Source: Rubrobacteraceae bacterium
Lineage (GTDB): Bacteria; Actinomycetota; Rubrobacteria; Rubrobacterales; Rubrobacteraceae
NCBI GenBank assembly: GCA_030447045.1
Contig: JAUJMB010000078.1
Coordinates: 1 to 7,317, forward strand
Reading direction: 5' to 3'
Length of the DNA: 7,317 nucleotides
Shown: positions 1 through 7,317 of the stretch, one piece after another
Numbering within the stretch: position 1 is the stretch's first letter
Layout of the letters: every line of letters begins with the position of its first letter
Notes under the pieces: model-generated
Told to the model about the DNA's origin: nothing
The model's input: only the letters and a program-made list of their open reading frames with translations
Database searches by the model: none
Position numbers and translations under genes: made by a program

Positions 1-495
1 GCCGACGAAGACGCCGCCGGCGGCGCGGCCGGTGCGCCCCCAGTCGTTGCCCTCGGGGCGGACCCTGGGCCCGCCGGTCCCCCCGTCGGGGGTTCCGTGG
101 CGGCGGCGCCTGAGGTACTCGCCGAGAAAGACGCCGCCCACGGAGCCGATGATGAGGCCGAAGAGGGAGCCGATGCCGAGAAAGAGCAGGCCGACGAGGG
201 CGCCGACGATACCGCCGATGGCGCCGCCGGCGGTCCCCCAGTTGCTCGCGCCGAAGCGACGCGCGCCGTAGCTGGTGCCGACAAAGTCCGCGACGAGGGC
301 GAGGGCCGCGAAGAGGCCGAGGAGGGCCACCACCCAGCCGCCGACGACCTCGAAGCCCGTCGAGAAGGCGTAGACGAGGGCGGAGATGAAGATCAGGGTC
401 ACCCCGGGGAGCGCCGGGAGCACGCTGCCCACGAGCCCCACGAACATCGCGACCAGGGTGACGACGAGAAGCGTGCCCTCGGGAAGGTCGAACAT
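1..495 (-). CDS. DUF456 family membrane protein, partial (C-terminus beyond window edge)
   Basis: The reading frame is open from an ATG at 495 to the left edge with no stop, giving 165 residues. It is a hydrophobic, glycine-rich protein. Residues about 8-26, 31-47, 52-72 and 87-125 form membrane segments. The LPxLPG motif at 26-31, the Asp-Phe-Val-Gly near 70 followed by Arg-Arg-Phe-Gly-Ala-Ser at 79-84, and the glycine-zipper stretch at 87-121 are typical of the DUF456 family, whose function is unknown. A charged Arg/Gly/Pro linker (about 128-158) precedes the start of what should be a final glycine-rich membrane segment (159 onward), which is cut off. Its ATG shares one base with the TGA of the upstream sulfur transferase (TGATG overlap), so the two are probably translationally coupled in the fabF operon. 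The family assignment rests on recalled motif pattern; the membrane nature is clear. Confidence 0.8.
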   Translation of the reverse strand, partial: MFDLPEGTLLVVTLVAMFVGLVGSVLPALPGVTLIFISALVYAFSTGFEVVGGWVVALLGLFAALALVADFVGTSYGARRFGASNWGTAGGAIGGIVGALVGLLFLGIGSLFGLIIGSVGGVFLGEYLRRRRHGTPDGGTGGPRVRPEGNDWGRTGRAAGGVFVG

Positions 496-1349
496 CAGGA
501 GAGGACGGGCAAGGACTTCTTGCCCTTCTTCTTGAGGACGGCGTTGAGGCTGCCGGACCTGTAGCCGGCGAGGTCCAGGGTGACGTAGAGGAAGCCCGCG
601 TCCAGGAGCTCGGCCGTGATCTTCTCGCGCTCGGCGAAGGCCCGTTCTAGCTCCTCGGGGCCGACCTCCAGGCGCGCGATCTCGCCGTGGTGCCTGACGC
701 GGACCTGCCGGAAACCCTCGCGGCGCATGAACTCTTCGGCCCTGGCTACCTGGGCGAGCTTCTCCGGCGTGATCTCCTGCCCGTAGGGGAACCGGCTGCT
801 GAGGCACGCGAGCGCCGGCTTGTCCCAGCTCGGCAACCCGAGAAGCTTCGCAAGCTCCCTGACCTCGGCCTTGCCCACCCCGGCCTCCGAGAGCGGCGAG
901 ACCACCCCGAGTTCTTTGGCGGCCTTCCTGCCAGGGCGGTAATCCCCCTCGTCGTCCTTGTTGGCCCCGTCCACCACGCACCCGTAGCCCCGCTCCTCGG
1001 CCAGCGCCGCAAGGTCCGAGTAGAGGGTGCTCTTGCAGAAGTAGCAGCGGTTGGTCGGGTTGGAGGCGTAGTTCGGGTCGTCGAGCTCGCGGGTGTTCAC
1101 CACCAGGTGCTCCACCCCGAGCGAGGCGGCGAAGTCGCGCGCGAGGTCGAGCTCGGAGGGCAGGTAGGTCTCGTTGTTGGACGTCACGGCCAGAACGTTG
1201 CCGGCGGGCAGCGCCCTGGCCGCCACCGCGAGCGCGAGCGAGGAATCGACCCCGCCGGAGAACGCGACCAGGGCGCTCCCGCGGGGGGCGACGATCTCTT
1301 CGAGCTCCCGCAGGCGCCTCTCGGCCGGAACGGGGGAAAGCTTCTGCAC
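495..1349 (-). CDS. larE: LarE-type ATP-dependent sulfur transferase
   Basis: This 284-residue protein belongs to the PP-loop ATP pyrophosphatase superfamily. The P-loop SGGVDSS is at residues 31-37, and the LarE-specific stretches NRCYFCKS (100-107), ACLSSRFPYG (181-190) and a GYRSGSLN tail are present. LarE adenylates a pyridinium mononucleotide carboxylate and replaces the carboxyl oxygen with sulfur while making the nickel-pincer cofactor of lactate racemase-type enzymes. Cys182 matches the sulfur-donating cysteine of the classical enzyme. Cys102 and Cys105 form a CxxC that would allow the [4Fe-4S]-dependent version. I chose the GTG at 1349 because it has a GAGGTG ribosome site 6 nt upstream and the family's usual length. 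An ATG at 1430 in the same frame adds 27 unconserved residues and has no good ribosome site. No larB, larC or nickel-pincer enzyme is in the window, so the acceptor is unknown and a related thiolation role is possible. Confidence 0.9.
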   Translation of the reverse strand: MQKLSPVPAERRLRELEEIVAPRGSALVAFSGGVDSSLALAVAARALPAGNVLAVTSNNETYLPSELDLARDFAASLGVEHLVVNTRELDDPNYASNPTNRCYFCKSTLYSDLAALAEERGYGCVVDGANKDDEGDYRPGRKAAKELGVVSPLSEAGVGKAEVRELAKLLGLPSWDKPALACLSSRFPYGQEITPEKLAQVARAEEFMRREGFRQVRVRHHGEIARLEVGPEELERAFAEREKITAELLDAGFLYVTLDLAGYRSGSLNAVLKKKGKKSLPVLS

Positions 1350-1441
1350 TTCTACCACCTCTCTGGTCTTCTTCACGGAGGACCGTTGGGCCGTCGGCCG
1401 CGCGCCGGTGTTCTGCGGGAAGACGCCCATGCCCGGTGGGC

Positions 1442-2683
1442 CTAGGCCCTCTGGAGAACGATGGCGGCGTTGTGGCCGCCGACGCCGAGGTTGGCGCAGA
1501 GGGCGGCCTCGAGGTTCGGGGCGTCCCTCGGCTCGTTCACCACGTAGTCGAGGTCGGCGCAGCCCTCGGCTAGCTTGTCCAGGTTGCGCATGGGGGGGAT
1601 GGTCCTGTTGCCCAGGGCGAGGGCGCAGATGGCGGTCTCGATCGCGCCGGAGGCGCCCAGGGAGTGGCCCAAAGTGGACTTTGTCGCAGAGACCATGGCG
1701 TTCGGGTTGATCTCGGCCATCGCCATAGACTCGGGGCCGTCGCCGGCGACGGTGCCCGTGCCGTGGGGGTTGATGTAGTCGATCTGCTCCCCGCTGAGGC
1801 CCGCACCCTCCACGGCGAGCCGCATCGCCCTCGTGATGCCGCGGCCCTTGGGGTCGGGGTCGGTGAGGTTGTAGGCGTCCGTGCTGCGCCCGACGCCGGT
1901 GATCTTGGCGTAGGGCTCCGCCCCGCGCCGCTCGACGGACTCGGCGCTCTCGAGGACCATGACCGCGGCGCCCTCCCCTATGAGGAAGCCGTTGTGGTTG
2001 GAGTCGTAGGGGCGGCAGGCGCCCTCGGGGTCGTCGTTGCGGCGGCTCATGGCGCGCATCGCGATAAACCCGGCGACGATGACCGGGGTGATGGAGGCTT
2101 CAGAGGCGCCGCAGAGGACGACGTCGGCGTCGCCGCGCCGGATCAGGTCGTAGCCAAGGGCCATCATGTCCGTCCCGCACGTGCAGGCGAGCGCCCCGGT
2201 GATGGATGGGCCCTGCACGCCGAGCTGGATGGCGACGTGGGCCGCGGCGGAGTTCGGCATGATCTTGGTGACCGAGAACGGGTTTACCCTTGCCGGGCCC
2301 TTGGAATCTATGGTGGCCTGGGTGGTCTCCATGCTCGTCACCCCGCCGATGCCGCTCCCGAGCACGAGGCCGACCCTCTCGGCGTTGTTCTCGAGCTCGC
2401 CCCAGGCGCCGGCGTCTTCGAGGGCGAGCTTGGCGGAGGCGAGGCCTATCTGGGCGAAGCGGTCGGTGCGGGCGGCGACCTTGCGCTCCATAAAGTCCGT
2501 GGGCTCGAAGGAGTCGCACTCGGCGGCGATCCTGACGTCGAACCCGTCCGGGTCGAAGAGGGTGATGGGGCCGGCCCCGCTCTCGTTGGCGAGCAGCGAG
2601 CTCCAGAACCTCTTGCGGCCGACCCCGACCGGGCTGACCACCCCTACCCCCGTTATGTAAGCCGCCGGGCGTCCGTTTTCCAT
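1442..2683 (-). CDS. fabF: Beta-ketoacyl-[ACP] synthase, FabF (KAS II) type
   Basis: A cytosolic condensing enzyme of fatty acid elongation: it joins malonyl-ACP to acyl-ACP with loss of CO2. It has 413 residues, the usual FabF length, starting YITGVGVVSPVG. The active site is complete: nucleophile Cys167 in ALACTCGTD, His307 in NPHGTGT, and Lys335 and His340 in TKSTLGHSLG. The GEGAAVMVLE segment is near 236-245. Two positions are odd. The nucleophile is followed at +2 by a second cysteine (Cys169). The C-terminal loop that normally reads GFGG reads GVGG (Val401), so the gating phenylalanine (Phe400 of E. coli FabF) is absent. The ATG at 2683 follows a GGGGGGCG ribosome site. The same frame opens at a GTG at 2734, but the extra 17 residues look untranslated. 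It is first in a minus-strand run with larE (92 nt gap) and the DUF456 gene, and divergent from the small membrane protein and PKS cluster. Confidence 0.93.
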   Translation of the reverse strand: MENGRPAAYITGVGVVSPVGVGRKRFWSSLLANESGAGPITLFDPDGFDVRIAAECDSFEPTDFMERKVAARTDRFAQIGLASAKLALEDAGAWGELENNAERVGLVLGSGIGGVTSMETTQATIDSKGPARVNPFSVTKIMPNSAAAHVAIQLGVQGPSITGALACTCGTDMMALGYDLIRRGDADVVLCGASEASITPVIVAGFIAMRAMSRRNDDPEGACRPYDSNHNGFLIGEGAAVMVLESAESVERRGAEPYAKITGVGRSTDAYNLTDPDPKGRGITRAMRLAVEGAGLSGEQIDYINPHGTGTVAGDGPESMAMAEINPNAMVSATKSTLGHSLGASGAIETAICALALGNRTIPPMRNLDKLAEGCADLDYVVNEPRDAPNLEAALCANLGVGGHNAAIVLQRA

Positions 2684-2710
2684 CTCGCCCCCCGTGAACG
2701 TAAAAGACCG

Positions 2711-2733
2711 TGCAGGACCCCTGCATCTTAGCA
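2711..2733 (-). promoter_or_regulatory. Possible extended -10 overlapped by a perfect dyad, upstream of fabF
   Basis: Read on the minus strand, TGC-TAAGAT (2733-2725) resembles an extended -10 element. It runs into a perfect inverted repeat TGCAGG-GGT-CCTGCA (2725-2711) that would cover the transcription start. No convincing -35 is at the right distance. A dyad at the start point would suit a repressor of the fatty-acid operon. Both parts are short, so this is a candidate only. Confidence 0.3.
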
Positions 2734-2808
2734 CCGAAGGTCGGGCAAGAGGCGCCGGGCGTCCCCGCGCGGCACCGTAAGGGCCGGTACTTCCGGGTTC
2801 TCCGCCTG

Positions 2809-2817
2809 TGCTATAAA
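2809..2817 (+). promoter_or_regulatory. Extended -10 promoter for the small membrane protein
   Basis: TGCTATAAA is a strong extended -10 (TGnTATAAT type) in otherwise very GC-rich DNA, placed about 15 nt before the ribosome site of the next gene. The -35 is weak (TTCCGG at 2791-2796, 15-bp spacer), as is common for extended -10 promoters. Just downstream, CCGGT (2818-2822) and ACCGG (2830-2834) form a small 5-bp stem whose 3' arm overlaps the ribosome site. Confidence 0.45.
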
Positions 2818-2832
2818 CCGGTGAGCGTAACC

Positions 2833-2840
2833 GGAAGGAG
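2833..2840 (+). promoter_or_regulatory. Ribosome binding site that favours a CTG start at 2847
   Basis: GGAAGGAG is a strong Shine-Dalgarno sequence. It lies 6 nt before an in-frame CTG (2847-2849) but 15 nt before the GTG at 2856, the first conventional start codon. On spacing alone CTG is the better initiator, adding three residues to the protein. Confidence 0.5.
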
Positions 2841-2855
2841 CACCCGCTGGCGTCC

Positions 2856-3164
2856 GTGATCTTTTATTCCGCCTCGATCCTGTTCGTGGCCAACTTCGCC
2901 CTCGGCGTGCTCGTGCAATTTCGTATCGTCGACACGAAGCCTTTCCGGTGGCTCCACCACGCGCTGTTCTTCGCGGTCTTCGTCTCCGCCGCCCTGGCGG
3001 TGGCGGCGGGTTTCTGGCAGGGGGCGCCCTACCGGTGGGCGCTCCTGCCGGTCCTCGCCCTCTTCTTCTTCCTGCCCCGGGTGCGGGCCGGGACGGCGGG
3101 GCACGCCGCCCTGGCGGGGGCTGCCATGGTCTTCTACGCCGCCGGGCTCGCCCTGACGCTCTAG
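2856..3164 (+). CDS. Small four-helix membrane protein, unknown function
   Basis: I do not recognise the family. The protein is 102 residues from the GTG at 2856, or 105 from the CTG at 2847 that the ribosome site favours. It is almost entirely membrane: predicted segments at about 2-22, 31-54, 59-74 and 83-102. Between segments 1 and 2 is a short loop with Arg, Asp and Lys, and segment 2 opens with FRWLHHALFF, whose paired histidines at the membrane edge could bind metal or haem; that is speculation. The loop before segment 4 carries PRVRAG, giving positive charge between segments 3 and 4. It has its own promoter candidate, is divergent from fabF, and ends 148 nt before the monooxygenase. 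Whether it belongs to the lipid cluster is open. The hydrophobic pattern and the strong ribosome site support it as a real gene. Confidence 0.75.
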   Translation: MIFYSASILFVANFALGVLVQFRIVDTKPFRWLHHALFFAVFVSAALAVAAGFWQGAPYRWALLPVLALFFFLPRVRAGTAGHAALAGAAMVFYAAGLALTL

Positions 3165-3195
3165 CGCCGGCCCCCGCGGACCCTTTGTGTGCGCC

Positions 3196-3228
3196 TTGAC
3201 TTCCGGCCCGCGCGCCGCGGGTTAGATT
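3196..3228 (+). promoter_or_regulatory. Long-spacer promoter candidate with a dyad in the spacer, before the PKS cluster
   Basis: TTGACT (3196-3201) is a near-consensus -35. The only A/T-rich -10-like element downstream is TTAGAT/TAGATT (3222-3228), giving a spacer of 20-21 bp rather than 17. Inside the spacer is the perfect dyad CCCGCG-CGC-CGCGGG (3207-3221). A long spacer holding a dyad is the layout of promoters activated by MerR-family proteins. At this GC content a GC-only dyad can arise by chance, and no MerR gene is in the window. Confidence 0.4.
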
Positions 3229-3244
3229 CATCCGGCCCGCGGAC

Positions 3245-3293
3245 CTGCCGGGTGGCCCTCCGGCCCCGGTCTGCAGGCGCGGATACCCGGCAG
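3245..3293 (+). promoter_or_regulatory. Leader stem-loop touching the monooxygenase ribosome binding site
   Basis: CTGCCGGGT (3245-3253) and ACCCGGCAG (3285-3293) are perfect 9-bp complements closing a 31-nt GC-rich loop. The 3' arm ends in the first two bases of the purine-rich ribosome site AGAGGAGAGG (3292-3301 region). If the promoter at 3196-3228 is used, this hairpin makes up most of the leader and could modulate translation of the first cluster gene. It is not a terminator: no U-tract follows. Confidence 0.5.
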
Positions 3294-3312
3294 AGGAGAG
3301 GCGGCAGCGTTT

Positions 3313-4608
3313 TTGAGTACGGGGGCGGCGTCGCGCGCGCCGGAGAGCGAGCGCGCTAAAGACAGGCAAAGGGACGGGACCCGTCAGGCGACGCCCCGCA
3401 CGCGCCGGGCGGAGTGCTGCGTCGTCGGCGGGGGACCGGCCGGGGTGGTGCTCGGGCTCATGCTCGCCCGCGAGGGCGTTCGGGTCACCGTGCTCGAGGC
3501 GCAGACCAGCTTCGAGCGGCAGTTCCGGGGCAACACGTTGAACCCCGCCGTGCTCAAGATCATGGAGGACCTCGGCCTGATCGAGGACCTCCTCAAGCTC
3601 CGCCACGCCGAGGTGCGCACCTTCGTCGTGCAGACAAACGGGGTACACGAGACGTTCGCGGACTTCGGACGCCTGCGGTGCTCCTACCCCTACGTCCTCA
3701 TGCTCCCCCAGGCGCGTTTCTTGGAGTTCGTGACCCGGGAGGCGGGGCGCCACCCGAACTTCGAGCTGGTGATGGGCGCCAAGGTGCACGGGCTTATCGA
3801 GGAGGACGGGGCCGTCCGGGGCGTGCGCTACCGCGGCCCCGGCGGCGCGGGGGAGGTGCGGGCCGACCTCACCGTCGGGGCCGACGGGCGGTTCTCCAAG
3901 GTCAGGCGCCTCTCCGGGCTGCGGGCCCGCGCCGGCCGCTCGCCGATGGACGTGCTGTGGTTCAACCTACCCAGGGAAGTGGGCGACCCCGAGGGGGCGG
4001 GTGCCATCTTCCGCTGCGGGCCGGGGAGCCTGCTCGTCCTCATGGACCACTTCGACTACTGGCAGGTCGGCTTTATAGTCGAGAAGGGGTCCTACAGGCG
4101 GGTCAAGGAGGCCGGCCTCCCGGCGCTCCAGGAGTCGGTGGCCTCCCTCGCGCCCGAGTTCGCAGGAAGGGTGGGGCGCCTGTCCGGGTGGGAGGAGGTC
4201 TCGCTGCTCACCGTCGAGTCGGACATGCTCAGGCGCTGGAGCCGCCCGGGGCTGCTGCTGCTAGGTGATGCGGCCCACGTCGTCTCGCCGGTTGGCGGGG
4301 TCGGGATCAACCTCGCGATCCAGGACGCCGTGGCGGCCGCCAACACGCTCGCCGGCCCGCTCAGGGCCGGGACGCTCGGGGCCGGGCACCTGCGGGCCGT
4401 GCAGCGGCGCCGGGAGTGGCCCGTGCGGGTCGTCCAGGCCGCCCAGGACGCCGCCCAGCGTTGGGTGGTCGCCGGCGTGTTGGAGGCGGACGCGCCCTAC
4501 GAGCTGCCGCTGGCCGTGCGCCTCGGGCTCAAGACGCCCGTGCTGCGGGACGTTCCCACGCGCCTGATCGCGCTCGGCGCCCGCCAGGTACGCCCGAAGA
4601 CGCGGTAG
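3313..4608 (+). CDS. FAD-dependent monooxygenase (class A flavoprotein hydroxylase), SrsC-like role
   Basis: This 431-residue protein has the three marks of single-component FAD hydroxylases (the p-hydroxybenzoate hydroxylase/UbiH type). The dinucleotide-binding VVGGGPAG is at 37-44, with Glu62 ending the second strand. The DG motif [10 protein letters not shown] is at 189-198. The GD motif [16 protein letters not shown] is at 318-333. Such enzymes use NAD(P)H and O2 to hydroxylate electron-rich aromatic rings. First in the cluster, it probably oxidises the PKS product, as SrsC does with alkylresorcinols on the way to alkylquinones; that role is inferred. The first 30 residues are hydrophilic and precede the fold. 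The start is TTG at 3313, the first start codon after the purine-rich AGAGGAGAGG. The C-terminus after about 380 is variable in the family and gives no clue. It ends 52 nt before the nitroreductase; a GACCG-GG-CGGTC dyad (4624-4635) lies in that gap. A geranylgeranyl reductase-like role cannot be excluded. Confidence 0.88.
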
Positions 4609-4649
4609 GATAAGGGCCAATAGGACCGGGCGGTCGAAAGGACAATTCC

Positions 4650-4656
4650 GGAGGAG
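4650..4656 (+). promoter_or_regulatory. Ribosome binding site fixing the TTG start of the nitroreductase
   Basis: GGAGGAG lies 4 nt (6 nt counting from GGAGG) before TTG at 4661. No ATG or GTG nearby gives a full N-terminus, so the TTG start is well supported. Confidence 0.7.
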
Positions 4657-4660
4657 ACGT

Positions 4661-5482
4661 TTGGAGTTTTTCGAGGTCGTGAAGCGGCGCAGGACCACCA
4701 ACGGGCCGTTTCTGCCGGATCCCGTAAGCGAGGAGCACCAGCGCCTGCTGGTGGAGGTGGCGGCGATGGCGCCGTCGCACTTCAACAGCCAGCCCTGGCG
4801 CTTCGTGCTGGCCGACGATAGGGCCGTGATCGAGGAGGTGGCCCGCATCAGCGGCGAGTCCATGCGCCGGCTGATGGAGGAGGGGACGTTCTGGAAGCGC
4901 TACAGGCCGTACTTCCGCTTCTCCGAGGAGGAGATGGAGGAGCGCCGGGACGGCATCCACATCGACAAGCTCCCCGCGGTGGTGAGGCCTTTTAGGCGCC
5001 AGATCTTCAGCAACACGGGCCAGGCCGTGATGAACCGCTTCGGGGTGCCAAAGACGCTCGCCGAGGACAACCGGAAGCTGGTGGCCGGCTCCCCCCTAAT
5101 CCTCGCCGTGCTCCTGGACAAGACGGAGTACCGCCCCGGCGACCTCTCCGGGTTCTACTCCGTCTTCGGCATGGGCGCGGCCGTCGAGAACATCTGGCTG
5201 GCCACCACGGAGCTCGGCATGGGCATCCAGTTCGTCTCGACGCCGATGGAGATTCCGGAGAACTGGGAGAGGCTCCAAAGGCTCCTCAAGGTCCCAGACG
5301 ACCTGGAGCTAATGGCGGTCTACCGCCTCGGCTACGTCCCCCAGGAGCGCCGGCGGCCGACGATAGATTGGTCGAGCACGGAGCGCAAGCGCCTCTCCCA
5401 GTACGTGTTCCGGAATACGTGCGAGAGGCCGGTGGCTGATACCCTTGGAGAGAACGGCACCCAGACGCCTCCACCCGCTTAG
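4661..5482 (+). CDS. Nitroreductase-family flavoprotein
   Basis: The 273-residue product matches the FMN-dependent nitroreductase fold. An Arg-rich N-terminal FMN contact ([10 protein letters not shown], 8-17) is followed by the family signature [10 protein letters not shown] at 37-46. [17 protein letters not shown] is at 172-188 and the closing strand YRLGYV at 221-226. Classical members have about 200 residues. The extra length here is a charged helical insert at about 60-130 and a hydrophilic tail after 230. Family members are usually homodimers that reduce nitro, quinone, flavin or enone groups with NAD(P)H. Between the monooxygenase and the PKS, a quinone or enone reduction on the lipid product is plausible; this is inference. 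Its stop codon is 1 nt before the AGGAG ribosome site of the PKS, implying one transcript and coupled translation. The exact substrate cannot be read from the sequence. Confidence 0.88.
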
Positions 5483-5501
5483 CAGGAGCTTCGAGACCCG
5501 C

Positions 5502-6587
5502 ATGCACCAGGCAAACCCGAGCATACTCTCCGTGGCGACGGCGACGGCGCCGCACGGGATCCCCCAGCCGGTGGCCAAGGAATTCGCGCGGGCCATGTTC
5601 GCTGACGTGTACAGGGACATAGATCGCCTCCTCCCGATCTTCGACCACTCCGGGGTGGAGCACCGCAGCTTCTGCGTCCCGGTCGAGTGGTTCTACGAGG
5701 ACCACTCCTTCTCCGAGAAGAACGACCTCTACGTCCAGAGCGCGCTCGACCTCTCCGAGAAGGCCGCCCGCCGCGCCCTGGACAGGGCGGGGGCCGAGCC
5801 CTCGGACGTCGGCGCCGTCTTTTTCGTCTCGACCACGGGACTCGCGATCCCGTCGATAGACTCGTTCCTTCTCCAGCGGCTCGGCCTCTCGGAGCACACG
5901 AGGCGGGTGCCGGTGGTCGGGCTCGGGTGCGCAGCTGGGGCCTCCGGCCTCGGGCTGGCGGCGCACTACGCCCGCGCCTGCCGCCCGGGAGAATTGGTCC
6001 TGCTGGTCGCGGTCGAGCTCTGCGGCCTCACCTTCCAGAAGGGCGACCGCTCCAAGGCGAACCTGGTCTCGACCGCCCTCTTTGCCGACGGGGCGGCGGC
6101 GGTCCTGCTCGGCCCGGGCGCCGGCGAGGGAGGCGACGGGAGACCCGTCGCGGGACCCGAATTGCTCGGCAGCTACACCACCACCTGGCCCGGCACGGAG
6201 GACGTGATGGGCTTCGACATCGGCGAGCACGGCCTGAAGGTCCTGCTCTCGCGCAGCGTCCCTTCGGTGGTCTACGAGCGGATGCCGGAGAACCTGCGCC
6301 TGGCGCTCGGCTCCGTCGGGCTCTCGTTGGACGACATCCTGCACCCCCTCATCCACCCCGGGGGTGCTAAGGTGCTGGACGCCTTCGAGGAGGTTTTGGG
6401 CCTCGAGCCCGGCGGCCTGGACATCTCCCGCGAGGTCCTGCGCGAGCACGGGAACATGTCCAGCGTCACGGTGCTCTTTATCCTGGAGCGCTTTCTCGCC
6501 GGCGCAGATTACGCCCCCGGCGAGCACGGGGTGCTCTCGGCGATGGGGCCGGGCTTCTCCGCGGAGCACGTGTTTTTTAGGTGTTAG
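5502..6587 (+). CDS. Type III polyketide synthase (alkylresorcinol/alkylpyrone synthase-like)
   Basis: A 361-residue chalcone-synthase-fold homodimeric enzyme that extends an acyl-CoA starter with malonyl-CoA and cyclises the chain, without an acyl carrier. The catalytic triad is intact: Cys143 in GLGCAAGASG, His295 in IHPGGAK and Asn318 in EHGNMSS. The GFDIGEHGLKVLLSRSVP segment (237-254) and the C-terminal AMGPGFSAE loop are typical. The N-terminus ILSVATATAPH and the His295 surroundings look more like bacterial long-chain alkylpyrone/alkylresorcinol synthases than plant-type or THN synthases. The co-encoded membrane methyltransferase also points to a lipid product. ATG 5502 gives the usual family N-terminus, with AGGAG 13 nt upstream. 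The frame is open back to a TTG at 5445, which has no good ribosome site. The gene starts 19 nt after the nitroreductase stop, and its stop codon lies in the first unit of a 7-nt repeat array. Confidence 0.95.
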   Translation: MHQANPSILSVATATAPHGIPQPVAKEFARAMFADVYRDIDRLLPIFDHSGVEHRSFCVPVEWFYEDHSFSEKNDLYVQSALDLSEKAARRALDRAGAEPSDVGAVFFVSTTGLAIPSIDSFLLQRLGLSEHTRRVPVVGLGCAAGASGLGLAAHYARACRPGELVLLVAVELCGLTFQKGDRSKANLVSTALFADGAAAVLLGPGAGEGGDGRPVAGPELLGSYTTTWPGTEDVMGFDIGEHGLKVLLSRSVPSVVYERMPENLRLALGSVGLSLDDILHPLIHPGGAKVLDAFEEVLGLEPGGLDISREVLREHGNMSSVTVLFILERFLAGADYAPGEHGVLSAMGPGFSAEHVFFRC

Positions 6588-6617
6588 GCTTCGGGCATCA
6601 GGTTTCGGGTGGCGGGC
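6583..6617 (+). repeat. Degenerate 7-nt repeat array, about five units, orientation TTCRGGY
   Basis: Five consecutive heptamers, GTTAGGC, TTCGGGC, ATCAGGT, TTCGGGT and GGCGGGC, share a TTCRGGY pattern and differ mostly by transitions. The array begins at the PKS stop codon (6585-6587 lies in unit one) and fills much of the 67-nt gap before the methyltransferase. The same heptamer occurs in the opposite orientation at 7188-7215. Confidence 0.6.
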
Positions 6618-6654
6618 CCCGGTTCTCCCGCTCCGGCGAAAGACGTCTCTGAGG

Positions 6655-7164
6655 TTGGGGCTGCTTCTGCTCGGGGTTGGGCTCGTGGCCGTGCAGCGGC
6701 TTCTAGAGTTGCGGTATTCGCGGCGCAACGAGCGCCGTCTCCGGGCGCGGGGGGCCGTGGAGCGGGGGCGTGGACACTACCCTGCGATGGTCGCCGTGCA
6801 TACCCTGTGGCTCGTCTCGACGCTGGTGGAGGGGTTGCTGCGCGGGTCGGAGCCGCCCGCTTGGTGGCCCGTGCCGCTCGCGCTGTTCGTGCTCGTCCAG
6901 CCCTTGCGGTACTGGGCGATCTCTTCCCTTGGCGAGAACTGGAACGTGCGCATCCTCGTGGTGCCAGGCGGCAAGCTCGTCAGGAGCGGGCCTTACCGCT
7001 TCTTCCCGCACCCCAACTACGTGGTCGTCGCCACGGAGGTCCTGACCCTGCCCCTGATCTTCGGCGCCTGGACGACGGCCCTGGTGTTCACGATCCTCAA
7101 CGCCGCCTTCTTCTACGTGCGCATCCGCGCGGAAGACCGGGCGCTCCGGGAGCTTGCAGGCTAA
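6655..7164 (+). CDS. ICMT-family membrane methyltransferase, SrsB/BpsB-like role
   Basis: An integral-membrane SAM-dependent methyltransferase of the isoprenylcysteine carboxyl methyltransferase superfamily, 169 residues long. From the TTG start, a first membrane segment (2-16) runs into QRLLELRYSRRNERRLRARGA (14-34), the conserved block of the YpbQ/BpsB branch. Segments at about 43-62 and 69-92 follow. The SAM-binding SGPYRFFPHPNYV (111-123), a hydrophobic hairpin (124-155) and the terminal RIRAEDRAL (156-164) complete it. Members beside type III PKS genes (SrsB, BpsB) O-methylate alkylresorcinols or alkylpyrones, so that is the expected role here. The start is uncertain: the frame is open far upstream inside the PKS. 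TTG 6655 is chosen because it keeps the first membrane segment, though its ribosome site is weak. GTG 6685 would delete that segment. The gene is flanked on both sides by related 7-nt repeats and lies 65 nt before serS. Confidence 0.87.
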   Translation: MGLLLLGVGLVAVQRLLELRYSRRNERRLRARGAVERGRGHYPAMVAVHTLWLVSTLVEGLLRGSEPPAWWPVPLALFVLVQPLRYWAISSLGENWNVRILVVPGGKLVRSGPYRFFPHPNYVVVATEVLTLPLIFGAWTTALVFTILNAAFFYVRIRAEDRALRELAG

Positions 7165-7187
7165 GATAGCCTTGGCTCTCGGCTTCT

Positions 7188-7215
7188 GCCTGAGGCCCGA
7201 TGCCTGAAGCCTAAG
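7188..7215 (-). repeat. Degenerate 7-nt repeat array, four units, inverted relative to 6583-6617
   Basis: On the plus strand four units, GCCTGAG, GCCCGAT, GCCTGAA and GCCTAAG, repeat every 7 nt. Their reverse complement matches the array after the PKS: 21 of the first 26 bases agree and all five differences are transitions. GGCTTC (7181-7186) also pairs with GAAGCC (7206-7211), so the transcript can form a hairpin between the methyltransferase and serS. With no U-tract after it, this is a poor intrinsic terminator. Confidence 0.55.
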
Positions 7216-7229
7216 ACCCGGAGGCGCCC

Positions 7230-7317
7230 ATGTTGGATCTCAAGTTTATCCGCGAGAACGCGGAGGCCGTCCAGGAGAACTGCAAGAACCGCGGCGTCGA
7301 GGCCGACGTCGGGTTGG
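7230..7317 (+). CDS. serS: Seryl-tRNA synthetase, N-terminal fragment (cut by window edge)
   Basis: Only 29 codons are present. The opening MLDLKFIRENAEAVQENC, then KNRGVEADV, is the hallmark start of bacterial seryl-tRNA synthetase: the first helix leading into the tRNA-binding coiled-coil arm. The enzyme charges tRNA-Ser, and also tRNA-Sec where present, with serine. ATG at 7230 has GGAGG (7220-7224) 5 nt upstream. No T-box leader is seen in the 65-nt gap after the methyltransferase. No clear promoter is visible there either, so read-through from the lipid cluster is possible. The catalytic class II domain lies outside the window. Confidence 0.9.
   Translation, partial: MLDLKFIRENAEAVQENCKNRGVEADVGL

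Follow-up and report, generated by a model that had tools for sequence, protein, structure and literature searches.

What does a short, operon-like run of genes around a type III polyketide synthase (PKS) make in a Rubrobacteraceae bacterium? The window analyzed here is a stretch of 7,317 nucleotides (assembly GCA_030447045.1, contig JAUJMB010000078.1, positions 1 to 7,317). Its plus strand carries, in this order, a membrane open reading frame (ORF) of about 102 to 105 amino acids that is conserved in relatives (TM; 2847, with a CTG start, or 2856, with a GTG start, to 3164), a class A flavin adenine dinucleotide (FAD) monooxygenase (FMO; 3313 to 4608, TTG start), a nitroreductase-fold oxidoreductase of the flavin mononucleotide (FMN) type (NTR; 4661 to 5482), the PKS itself (361 amino acids; 5502 to 6587, ATG start), and an ICMT-type membrane methyltransferase (ICMT, PF04140; 6655 to 7164, TTG start). 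We propose, with a probability of roughly 70%, that this operon makes a long-chain lipid, phenolic or pyrone in type, that is methylated and redox-tailored, because the window joins a core like the Bacillus bpsAB pair, an oxygenase like those of the srs and pkq clusters, NTR, and TM. This is a broad claim read from sequence; that the lipid is specifically a quinone with an electron-carrier role seems to us rather doubtful.

The first-pass annotation of this DNA, which counted four proteins, reported the PKS, ICMT, and FMO as running in one direction with short gaps. The gaps between the four genes from FMO to ICMT are indeed 52, 19, and 67 bases, and profile searches of the kind it called for confirmed all four families in Pfam: FAD_binding_3 (PF01494; E 6e-51) for FMO, Nitroreductase (PF00881; 6e-22) for NTR, Chal_sti_synt_N and Chal_sti_synt_C (3e-23 and 6e-23) for the PKS, and ICMT (3e-30) for the methyltransferase. 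The nearest NCBIfam model of FMO was NF004834, at 471.6 bits against a cut-off of 500. The annotation overlooked TM upstream and left the nitroreductase out of its reasoning. It was right about Cys143 and Asn318 of the PKS catalytic triad, but its “His295” is actually His285 (codons at 5928-5930 for Cys, 6354-6356 for His, and 6453-6455 for Asn); the Cys-His-Asn triad is identical in all 65 PKSs that we aligned. The Rubrobacter-like source that it suggested agrees with the best-matching locus (L001, uncultured Rubrobacteraceae), which shares 86 to 93% identity with the window for TM, FMO, NTR, PKS, and ICMT.

A contig scan of genomes with a 14-sequence PKS alignment gave 25 named loci, onto which the window proteins were mapped: 17 titled Rubrobacter, Rubrobacteraceae, Actinobacteria, or Actinomycetota, five Chlorobi-type, and three from Bacillaceae. 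ICMT lies directly downstream of the PKS in all 25, so the four-gene arrangement is not due to chance. NTR is found in 16 of the 17 actinobacterial loci (it is missing from L017 and incomplete, at a contig end, in L008), in all five Chlorobi-type loci, and in none of the three Bacillaceae loci. FMO is present in 10 of the 17 actinobacterial loci and absent from six, in which TM directly precedes NTR; its status in L008 is lost at the contig edge, and it was found in none of the eight Chlorobi-type and Bacillaceae loci. At the level of whole genomes, an FMO relative (E 1e-30) occurs in 15 of the 25 genomes of the named loci, with more than one copy in several Rubrobacter genomes, and in none of the eight non-actinobacterial genomes. 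The gene orders are TM-(FMO)-NTR-PKS-ICMT in Rubrobacter, PKS-ICMT-TM-NTR in the Chlorobi-type loci, and PKS-ICMT in Bacillaceae. Three further PKS-ICMT pairs lie on proteobacterial plasmids (L092-L094). NTR is thus a steadier extra partner of the PKS-ICMT pair than FMO is.

The linkage of NTR to the PKS extends to larger samples. We searched 296 Actinomycetota genomes and 296 genomes from the phylum of the Chlorobi-type genome G025 (called here the Bacteroidota phylum) with an NTR threshold of E ≤ 1e-40, scoring a capped number of candidates in each genome (mostly 8 for NTR and 16 for TM), so that misses are possible. NTR was detected in 24 Actinomycetota and 17 Bacteroidota-phylum genomes, and in none of 199 genomes from the phylum of the Bacillaceae, a sample without a positive control. 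Type III PKSs (PF02797) were found in 72 and 143 of the respective 296 genomes, and in every genome with NTR (24/24 and 17/17; Fisher p of 6e-17 and 2.5e-6, values that ignore shared descent). A PKS stands within about 1.1 kb of NTR in 38 of 41 loci (22 of 24 in Actinomycetota, 16 of 17 in the Bacteroidota phylum). Moreover, NTR and PKS distances are correlated, with r of 0.89 over 46 pairs (pairs with identical NTR counted once), a value reached in none of 2,000 permutations. A second Bacteroidota-phylum group, whose close protein matches are labelled Kapabacteria, Ignavibacteria, or Bacteroidetes, carries an NTR 60 to 65% identical to that of the window in the order NTR-PKS-ICMT. In four of its six larger regions (L084, L087, L089, and L090, not L086 or L091), an ORF of 586 to 615 amino acids directly precedes NTR-PKS. 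The three of these ORFs that were scanned resemble acyl-CoA ligases (NCBIfam best match FadD11, under its cut-off; PF00501 in the two scanned with Pfam), a fitting neighbor because a long-chain starter would need such a ligase. As a separate observation, the Leptospiraceae-labelled protein P0356 shares 67% identity with the L087 NTR, and the family may reach a further phylum.

These counts bear on the possibility that NTR and TM are mere bystanders of conserved gene order and that the pathway consists of PKS-ICMT, with or without FMO, alone. Close species do share synteny, which includes the ketoacyl synthase and LarE genes beside the operon, and L017 and the three Bacillaceae loci manage without NTR. 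Nevertheless, the linkage recurs in two phyla with differing gene orders (PKS-ICMT-TM-NTR in the Chlorobi-type loci and NTR-PKS-ICMT in the second group), and the three genomes in which NTR lies away from the PKS still have a PKS. We therefore regard the bystander explanation as improbable.

Where the window PKS belongs was addressed with a tree of 65 rows, in which PKS loci lacking a nearby ICMT are represented by a selection and which has long branches at L095_1, PKS11, L096, and L150. The window PKS pairs with that of L001 (support 100/100) within the Rubrobacter rows (100/99), and these join the second Bacteroidota-phylum group (98/95). The Chlorobi-type, Bacillaceae, and proteobacterial L092-L094 PKSs fall outside a branch (81/84) containing PKS11, the tetrahydroxynaphthalene synthase (THNS), ArsC, and other selected PKSs; no ICMT was found beside those other PKSs in the sequence stretches examined. 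Because the window PKS sits with the ICMT-paired PKSs, outside this branch, the nearest known pair to its PKS-ICMT would be bpsAB, a placement with moderate support in a tree that does not include B. subtilis BpsA itself. PKS11, the best PDB sequence match of the window PKS, serves as the stand-in for the SrsA clade (SrsA and PkqA are not in the tree) and is set apart from the window PKS on its long branch. The phylogeny that the first-pass annotation had asked for thus came out, with moderate support, on the side of the ICMT-paired, Bacillus-type PKSs, and not with the stand-in for SrsA. That annotation had also called the cluster srsABC-like. PKS, ICMT, and FMO do form a recurring set, but in this tree the PKS lies apart from PKS11, and FMO is optional; we retain “srsABC” as a functional likeness only, and not as a family name. 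One instance of the set has the srsABC order itself: the genome that contains L009 has a second cluster, PKS-ICMT-FMO (L158; G009:C237, 2730-5073), with an FMO 66% identical to that of the window, a PKS cut by the contig end, and no NTR on its short contig.

A type III PKS in an actinomycete might also belong to an RppA-like cluster making tetrahydroxynaphthalene and, from it, a flaviolin pigment. The tree speaks against this: THNS (1u0m) has a Streptomyces plasmid PKS as its partner (100/100) and stands apart from the window PKS, as the first-pass annotation had anticipated in treating the enzyme as of another kind. ICMT and, in relatives, the acyl-CoA-ligase-like neighbor indicate lipids. 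We consider the RppA-like explanation contradicted by the 65-row tree, with hardly any chance left to it.

The Bacillaceae pairs among the closest relatives raise a more serious alternative, in which the PKS stops at triketide or tetraketide pyrones, as BpsA mainly does, the 4-methyl ether comes from ICMT, and the role of NTR is to reduce or dehydrogenate the pyrone, with no resorcinol or quinone involved. Class A monooxygenases fit phenolic rings better than pyrones, and the FMO adjacent to the PKS therefore counts against such a route. On the other side, overexpression of bpsA-bpsB is described as yielding triketide pyrones and small amounts of alkylresorcinols (PMC5686519), and PKS11, which its PDB name and PMC8086630 both describe as a pyrone enzyme, has Trp at the site of window Phe238. 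The 3vs8/3vs9 pair shows this site, and a MAFFT alignment places it at Phe238; it is the position of ArsB Trp281 and ArsC Gly284, which is reported to set resorcinol versus pyrone production (PMC6274091); a Phe-to-Gly change in trORAS is likewise reported to have raised pyrones (PMC8086630). Across the 65 PKSs, the site is Trp in 59, Phe in two, Tyr in two, Leu in one, and Gly in one (ArsC). It does not settle the product, since PKS11 (Trp) and THNS (Tyr) are aromatic there too, and we make no resorcinol-versus-pyrone call from a position that is aromatic in 63 of 65 sequences. Overall, a purely pyrone product appears possible, although we lean against it.

The redox part of our proposal, a methylated lipid with redox tailoring, depends on NTR, TM, and FMO. 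NTR has a nitroreductase fold with an FMN-site motif, as judged by its Pfam match and by PDB fold matches, the best of which include BluB, iodotyrosine deiodinase, and Geobacter nitroreductases, obtained with a model of only moderate confidence (predicted local distance difference test [pLDDT] of 79). R10, S39, N42, and Q44, which we take to be FMN-site residues, are invariant, and one 13-residue stretch is conserved. Over the matched stretch, NTR exceeds the Pfam profile by about 50 residues (the extra segment was placed by eye at about residues 75 to 140), and its NCBIfam scores fall short of the cut-offs of both Acg (76 of 199 bits) and BluB (59.5 of 150). TM is predicted to be a four-helix membrane protein (pLDDT 96). 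Its Gly20, His37, His38, and His86 (numbered from 2847) do not vary in any of the 53 rows aligned; some of these rows are the same gene again, and one (L083) was picked for its LHH motif. In the structure model, His37/38 and His86 lie close to where helices 2 and 4 begin and would thus face one side of the membrane if the helices alternate; such an arrangement resembles heme ligation in cytochrome b. A fold search with TM returned four-helix bundles, with designed heme proteins and cytochrome b6f among them, but no match had an E under 0.001; we draw no conclusion from the lack of a natural match. The window TM had no Pfam match at 0.001, and we did not accept SirB (Chlorobi TM, E 0.044) or DUF3493 (window TM, E 0.019), both below cut-offs, as its family. 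In the Bacteroidota phylum, TM was found in 9 of 296 genomes, all nine with NTR, and in eight of them it lies within about 125 bases of NTR.

These features would suit a membrane quinone like the mycobacterial and streptomycete polyketide quinones (PkQ), with NTR and TM as its own oxidoreductase and TM possibly a bis-His heme protein. PKS, methyltransferase, and oxidoreductase are the PkQ gene set too, as PMC9927152 describes it; NTR has the appropriate fold, TM has three invariant histidines near the starts of two helices, and in the Bacteroidota phylum TM occurs only in NTR genomes (at most 16 candidates per genome scored). However, heme in TM is purely putative, and four-helix bundles match many unrelated folds, which makes the fold matches unspecific. 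Furthermore, FMO, which would probably supply the quinone oxygen, adjoins NTR in only 5 of the 22 sampled Actinomycetota loci with a PKS; given its absence from the other 17, a quinone would not be the family's general product. We consider the quinone system unlikely. In genomes with FMO-less loci, FMO relatives were found elsewhere in G005, G010, G011, and G012, and none were found in G006 and G007.

The history of FMO gives some indication of its role in the window. A flank tree was built from the concatenated TM, ICMT, and FabF-like ketoacyl synthase (KAS; 1442-2734, minus strand), which lies upstream of the operon and divergent from it. Rows with fewer than two of these three proteins, or without a long PKS, were dropped, which kept the window and 24 of 30 loci; five of the six loci lost are FMO-bearing (L009, L014, L016, L017, and L037). 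By its flanks, the window is sister to L039 (100/99), which has no FMO. The two share 96% identity in KAS, 91% in TM, and 82% in ICMT, but only 64% in the PKS; ICMT alone fails to single out L039 (82%, versus 84% for L005). The window PKS is instead 92% identical to that of the FMO-bearing L001, and in the PKS tree these two group with the FMO-bearing L002-L004 (100/98), whereas L039 groups with FMO-less loci (100/99). Approximately unbiased (AU) tests reject a flank-like PKS clade (p 1.7e-4) and a PKS-like flank clade (p 2e-8); because each tree is rejected for the other data, the PKS and the flanks are, as far as these trees indicate, without a shared history. The FMO label changes three times on the flank tree and twice on the PKS tree, versus a shuffled mean of 6.3 for both. 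The window NTR is nearest to that of L001 and not clearly with either set, and FMO-bearing L013 and L015 carry PKSs of another branch. The simplest account is that recombination replaced the stretch from FMO to PKS. Since this stretch seems to have been replaced together, the pattern suggests, rather than shows, that FMO works on the product of this PKS. An FMO tree of 12 rows was rejected as proof of a joint move, as it does not resolve the window's place. In L004 (a Rubrobacter marinus chromosome), FMO and the adjacent KAS match in several frames and look broken or affected by sequencing errors.

Taken as a pathway, our proposal of a methylated long-chain lipid runs as follows, where we infer the substrates, step order, product class, and roles of FMO, NTR, and TM. 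The PKS would load a long-chain fatty acyl-CoA, add malonyl units, and cyclize the chain, and ICMT would O-methylate a ring hydroxyl at the membrane. FMO could then hydroxylate the ring toward a hydroquinone or quinone, and NTR, perhaps with TM, might perform one more flavin-dependent redox reaction on the ring, the simplest being quinone/quinol reduction. The end product would be a membrane-resident O-methylated alkylresorcinol or alkylpyrone whose redox state is adjusted.

Several findings weigh against this proposal. The ArsB/ArsC site cannot decide between its two ring types, and FMO is missing from most sampled NTR-PKS loci. The NTR and PKS co-occurrence counts are not phylogenetically independent. 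L017 reads FMO-PKS-ICMT without NTR, and NTR does not stand beside the PKS in G090, G276, or G582: G090 keeps TM-PKS-ICMT (L161/L160) with a weaker, more distant NTR on another contig; G276 has NTR-TM and only a PKS of a different kind, near which no ICMT was found; and in G582, NTR and a TM-like ORF (identified by eye) are separate from PKS-ICMT. None of the six larger regions in the second Bacteroidota-phylum group yielded a TM, and one weak TM lies far off in G586. As for the FMO history, the AU clades were named after the trees had been seen, the FMO label still takes two changes on the PKS tree, and the FMO tree leaves the window and L001 unplaced on a long branch.

A bolder version would be a phenolic-lipid electron-carrier system common to Actinomycetota and the Bacteroidota/Chlorobi line. 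Here Bacillus-type PKS and ICMT would make the ring, a dedicated NTR, in many lineages with the multi-His and possibly heme-bearing TM, would pass electrons to or from the lipid, and FMO would be a swappable cassette that, together with an altered PKS allele, takes certain species from a plain methyl ether on to a quinone. We rate this lower, as a speculative and quite unlikely scheme, because FMO's own tree does not show a joint FMO-PKS move.

In our judgement of the literature available to us, little has been settled about what bacterial alkylresorcinols, alkylpyrones, and polyketide quinones do. The tracking of the PKS by NTR, often with TM, in two phyla gives an entry, at the level of genes, to the question of whether these lipids serve structure or redox activity, and the window, with FMO, versus its flank-wise sister L039, without it, is a natural experiment on what the oxygenase changes. 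PKS-ICMT lipid clusters are a known kind; the association with NTR and TM seems new within a narrow literature search, which found no paper on such a Rubrobacter cluster or on any nitroreductase acting together with a type III PKS.

The surroundings of the operon are themselves partly conserved. KAS, in which we see apparent Cys-His-His residues by motif assignment, is divergent beside the operon likewise in the 10 named Rubrobacter loci where it was found, and it is followed on the minus strand by LarE (495-1430; NCBIfam TIGR00268, 330 bits) and a DUF456 protein (family scan), all upstream of the operon. KAS and LarE flank the operon in relatives too; between them, L005 (3872-4453, minus strand) and L012 (3864-4436, minus strand) have a peroxiredoxin-like ORF, recognized by eye, that is missing in the window. 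Downstream of ICMT, an ORF starting at 7231 is presumably a seryl-tRNA synthetase by its N-terminal letters, and the same letters recur after ICMT in L005 and L012.

Among known systems, ars-type operons carry type I synthases, and in a Beijerinckia example a type I PKS lies next to a pair of type III PKSs. Azotobacter ArsB and ArsC belong to the same PKS family as the window enzyme and share its triad, and the ArsB Trp281 site is aromatic in the window as well; ArsC is far from the window PKS in the tree. Within the BluB/iodotyrosine deiodinase/Acg-type superfamily, the window NTR differs by its extra residues and sub-cut-off scores. The cyanobacterial hidABC operon and a planctomycete methyltransferase-oxidoreductase-PKS operon, compared by description only, are, like the window's, operons with three functions, in their case for alkylresorcinols, in another gene order and with no nitroreductase in the descriptions concerned; the planctomycete PKSs are reported to have made C15 and/or C17 alkylresorcinols (PMC10896814). 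S. griseus srsABC and mycobacterial-streptomycete pkqABC have the same three enzyme kinds as the window, matched by family and not by sequence, and operons of this composition are described as making polyketide quinones tied to respiration (PMC9927152). Their order, PKS-methyltransferase-hydroxylase, is that of Rubrobacter L158 and not of the window, where the oxidase precedes the PKS, as the first-pass annotation noted, and NTR and TM are extra. The aromatic Phe238 agrees with srsABC and pkqABC without discriminating, and the window PKS lies apart from PKS11, which PMC8086630 places in one clade with SrsA. Bacillus bpsA-bpsB, unlike the window, has no NTR, TM, or FMO in any of the three Bacillaceae loci, but it shares with the window a type III PKS with an intact triad followed directly by an ICMT-type methyltransferase, and all three Bacillaceae PKSs fall on the same side of the moderately supported branch in the PKS tree as that of the window.

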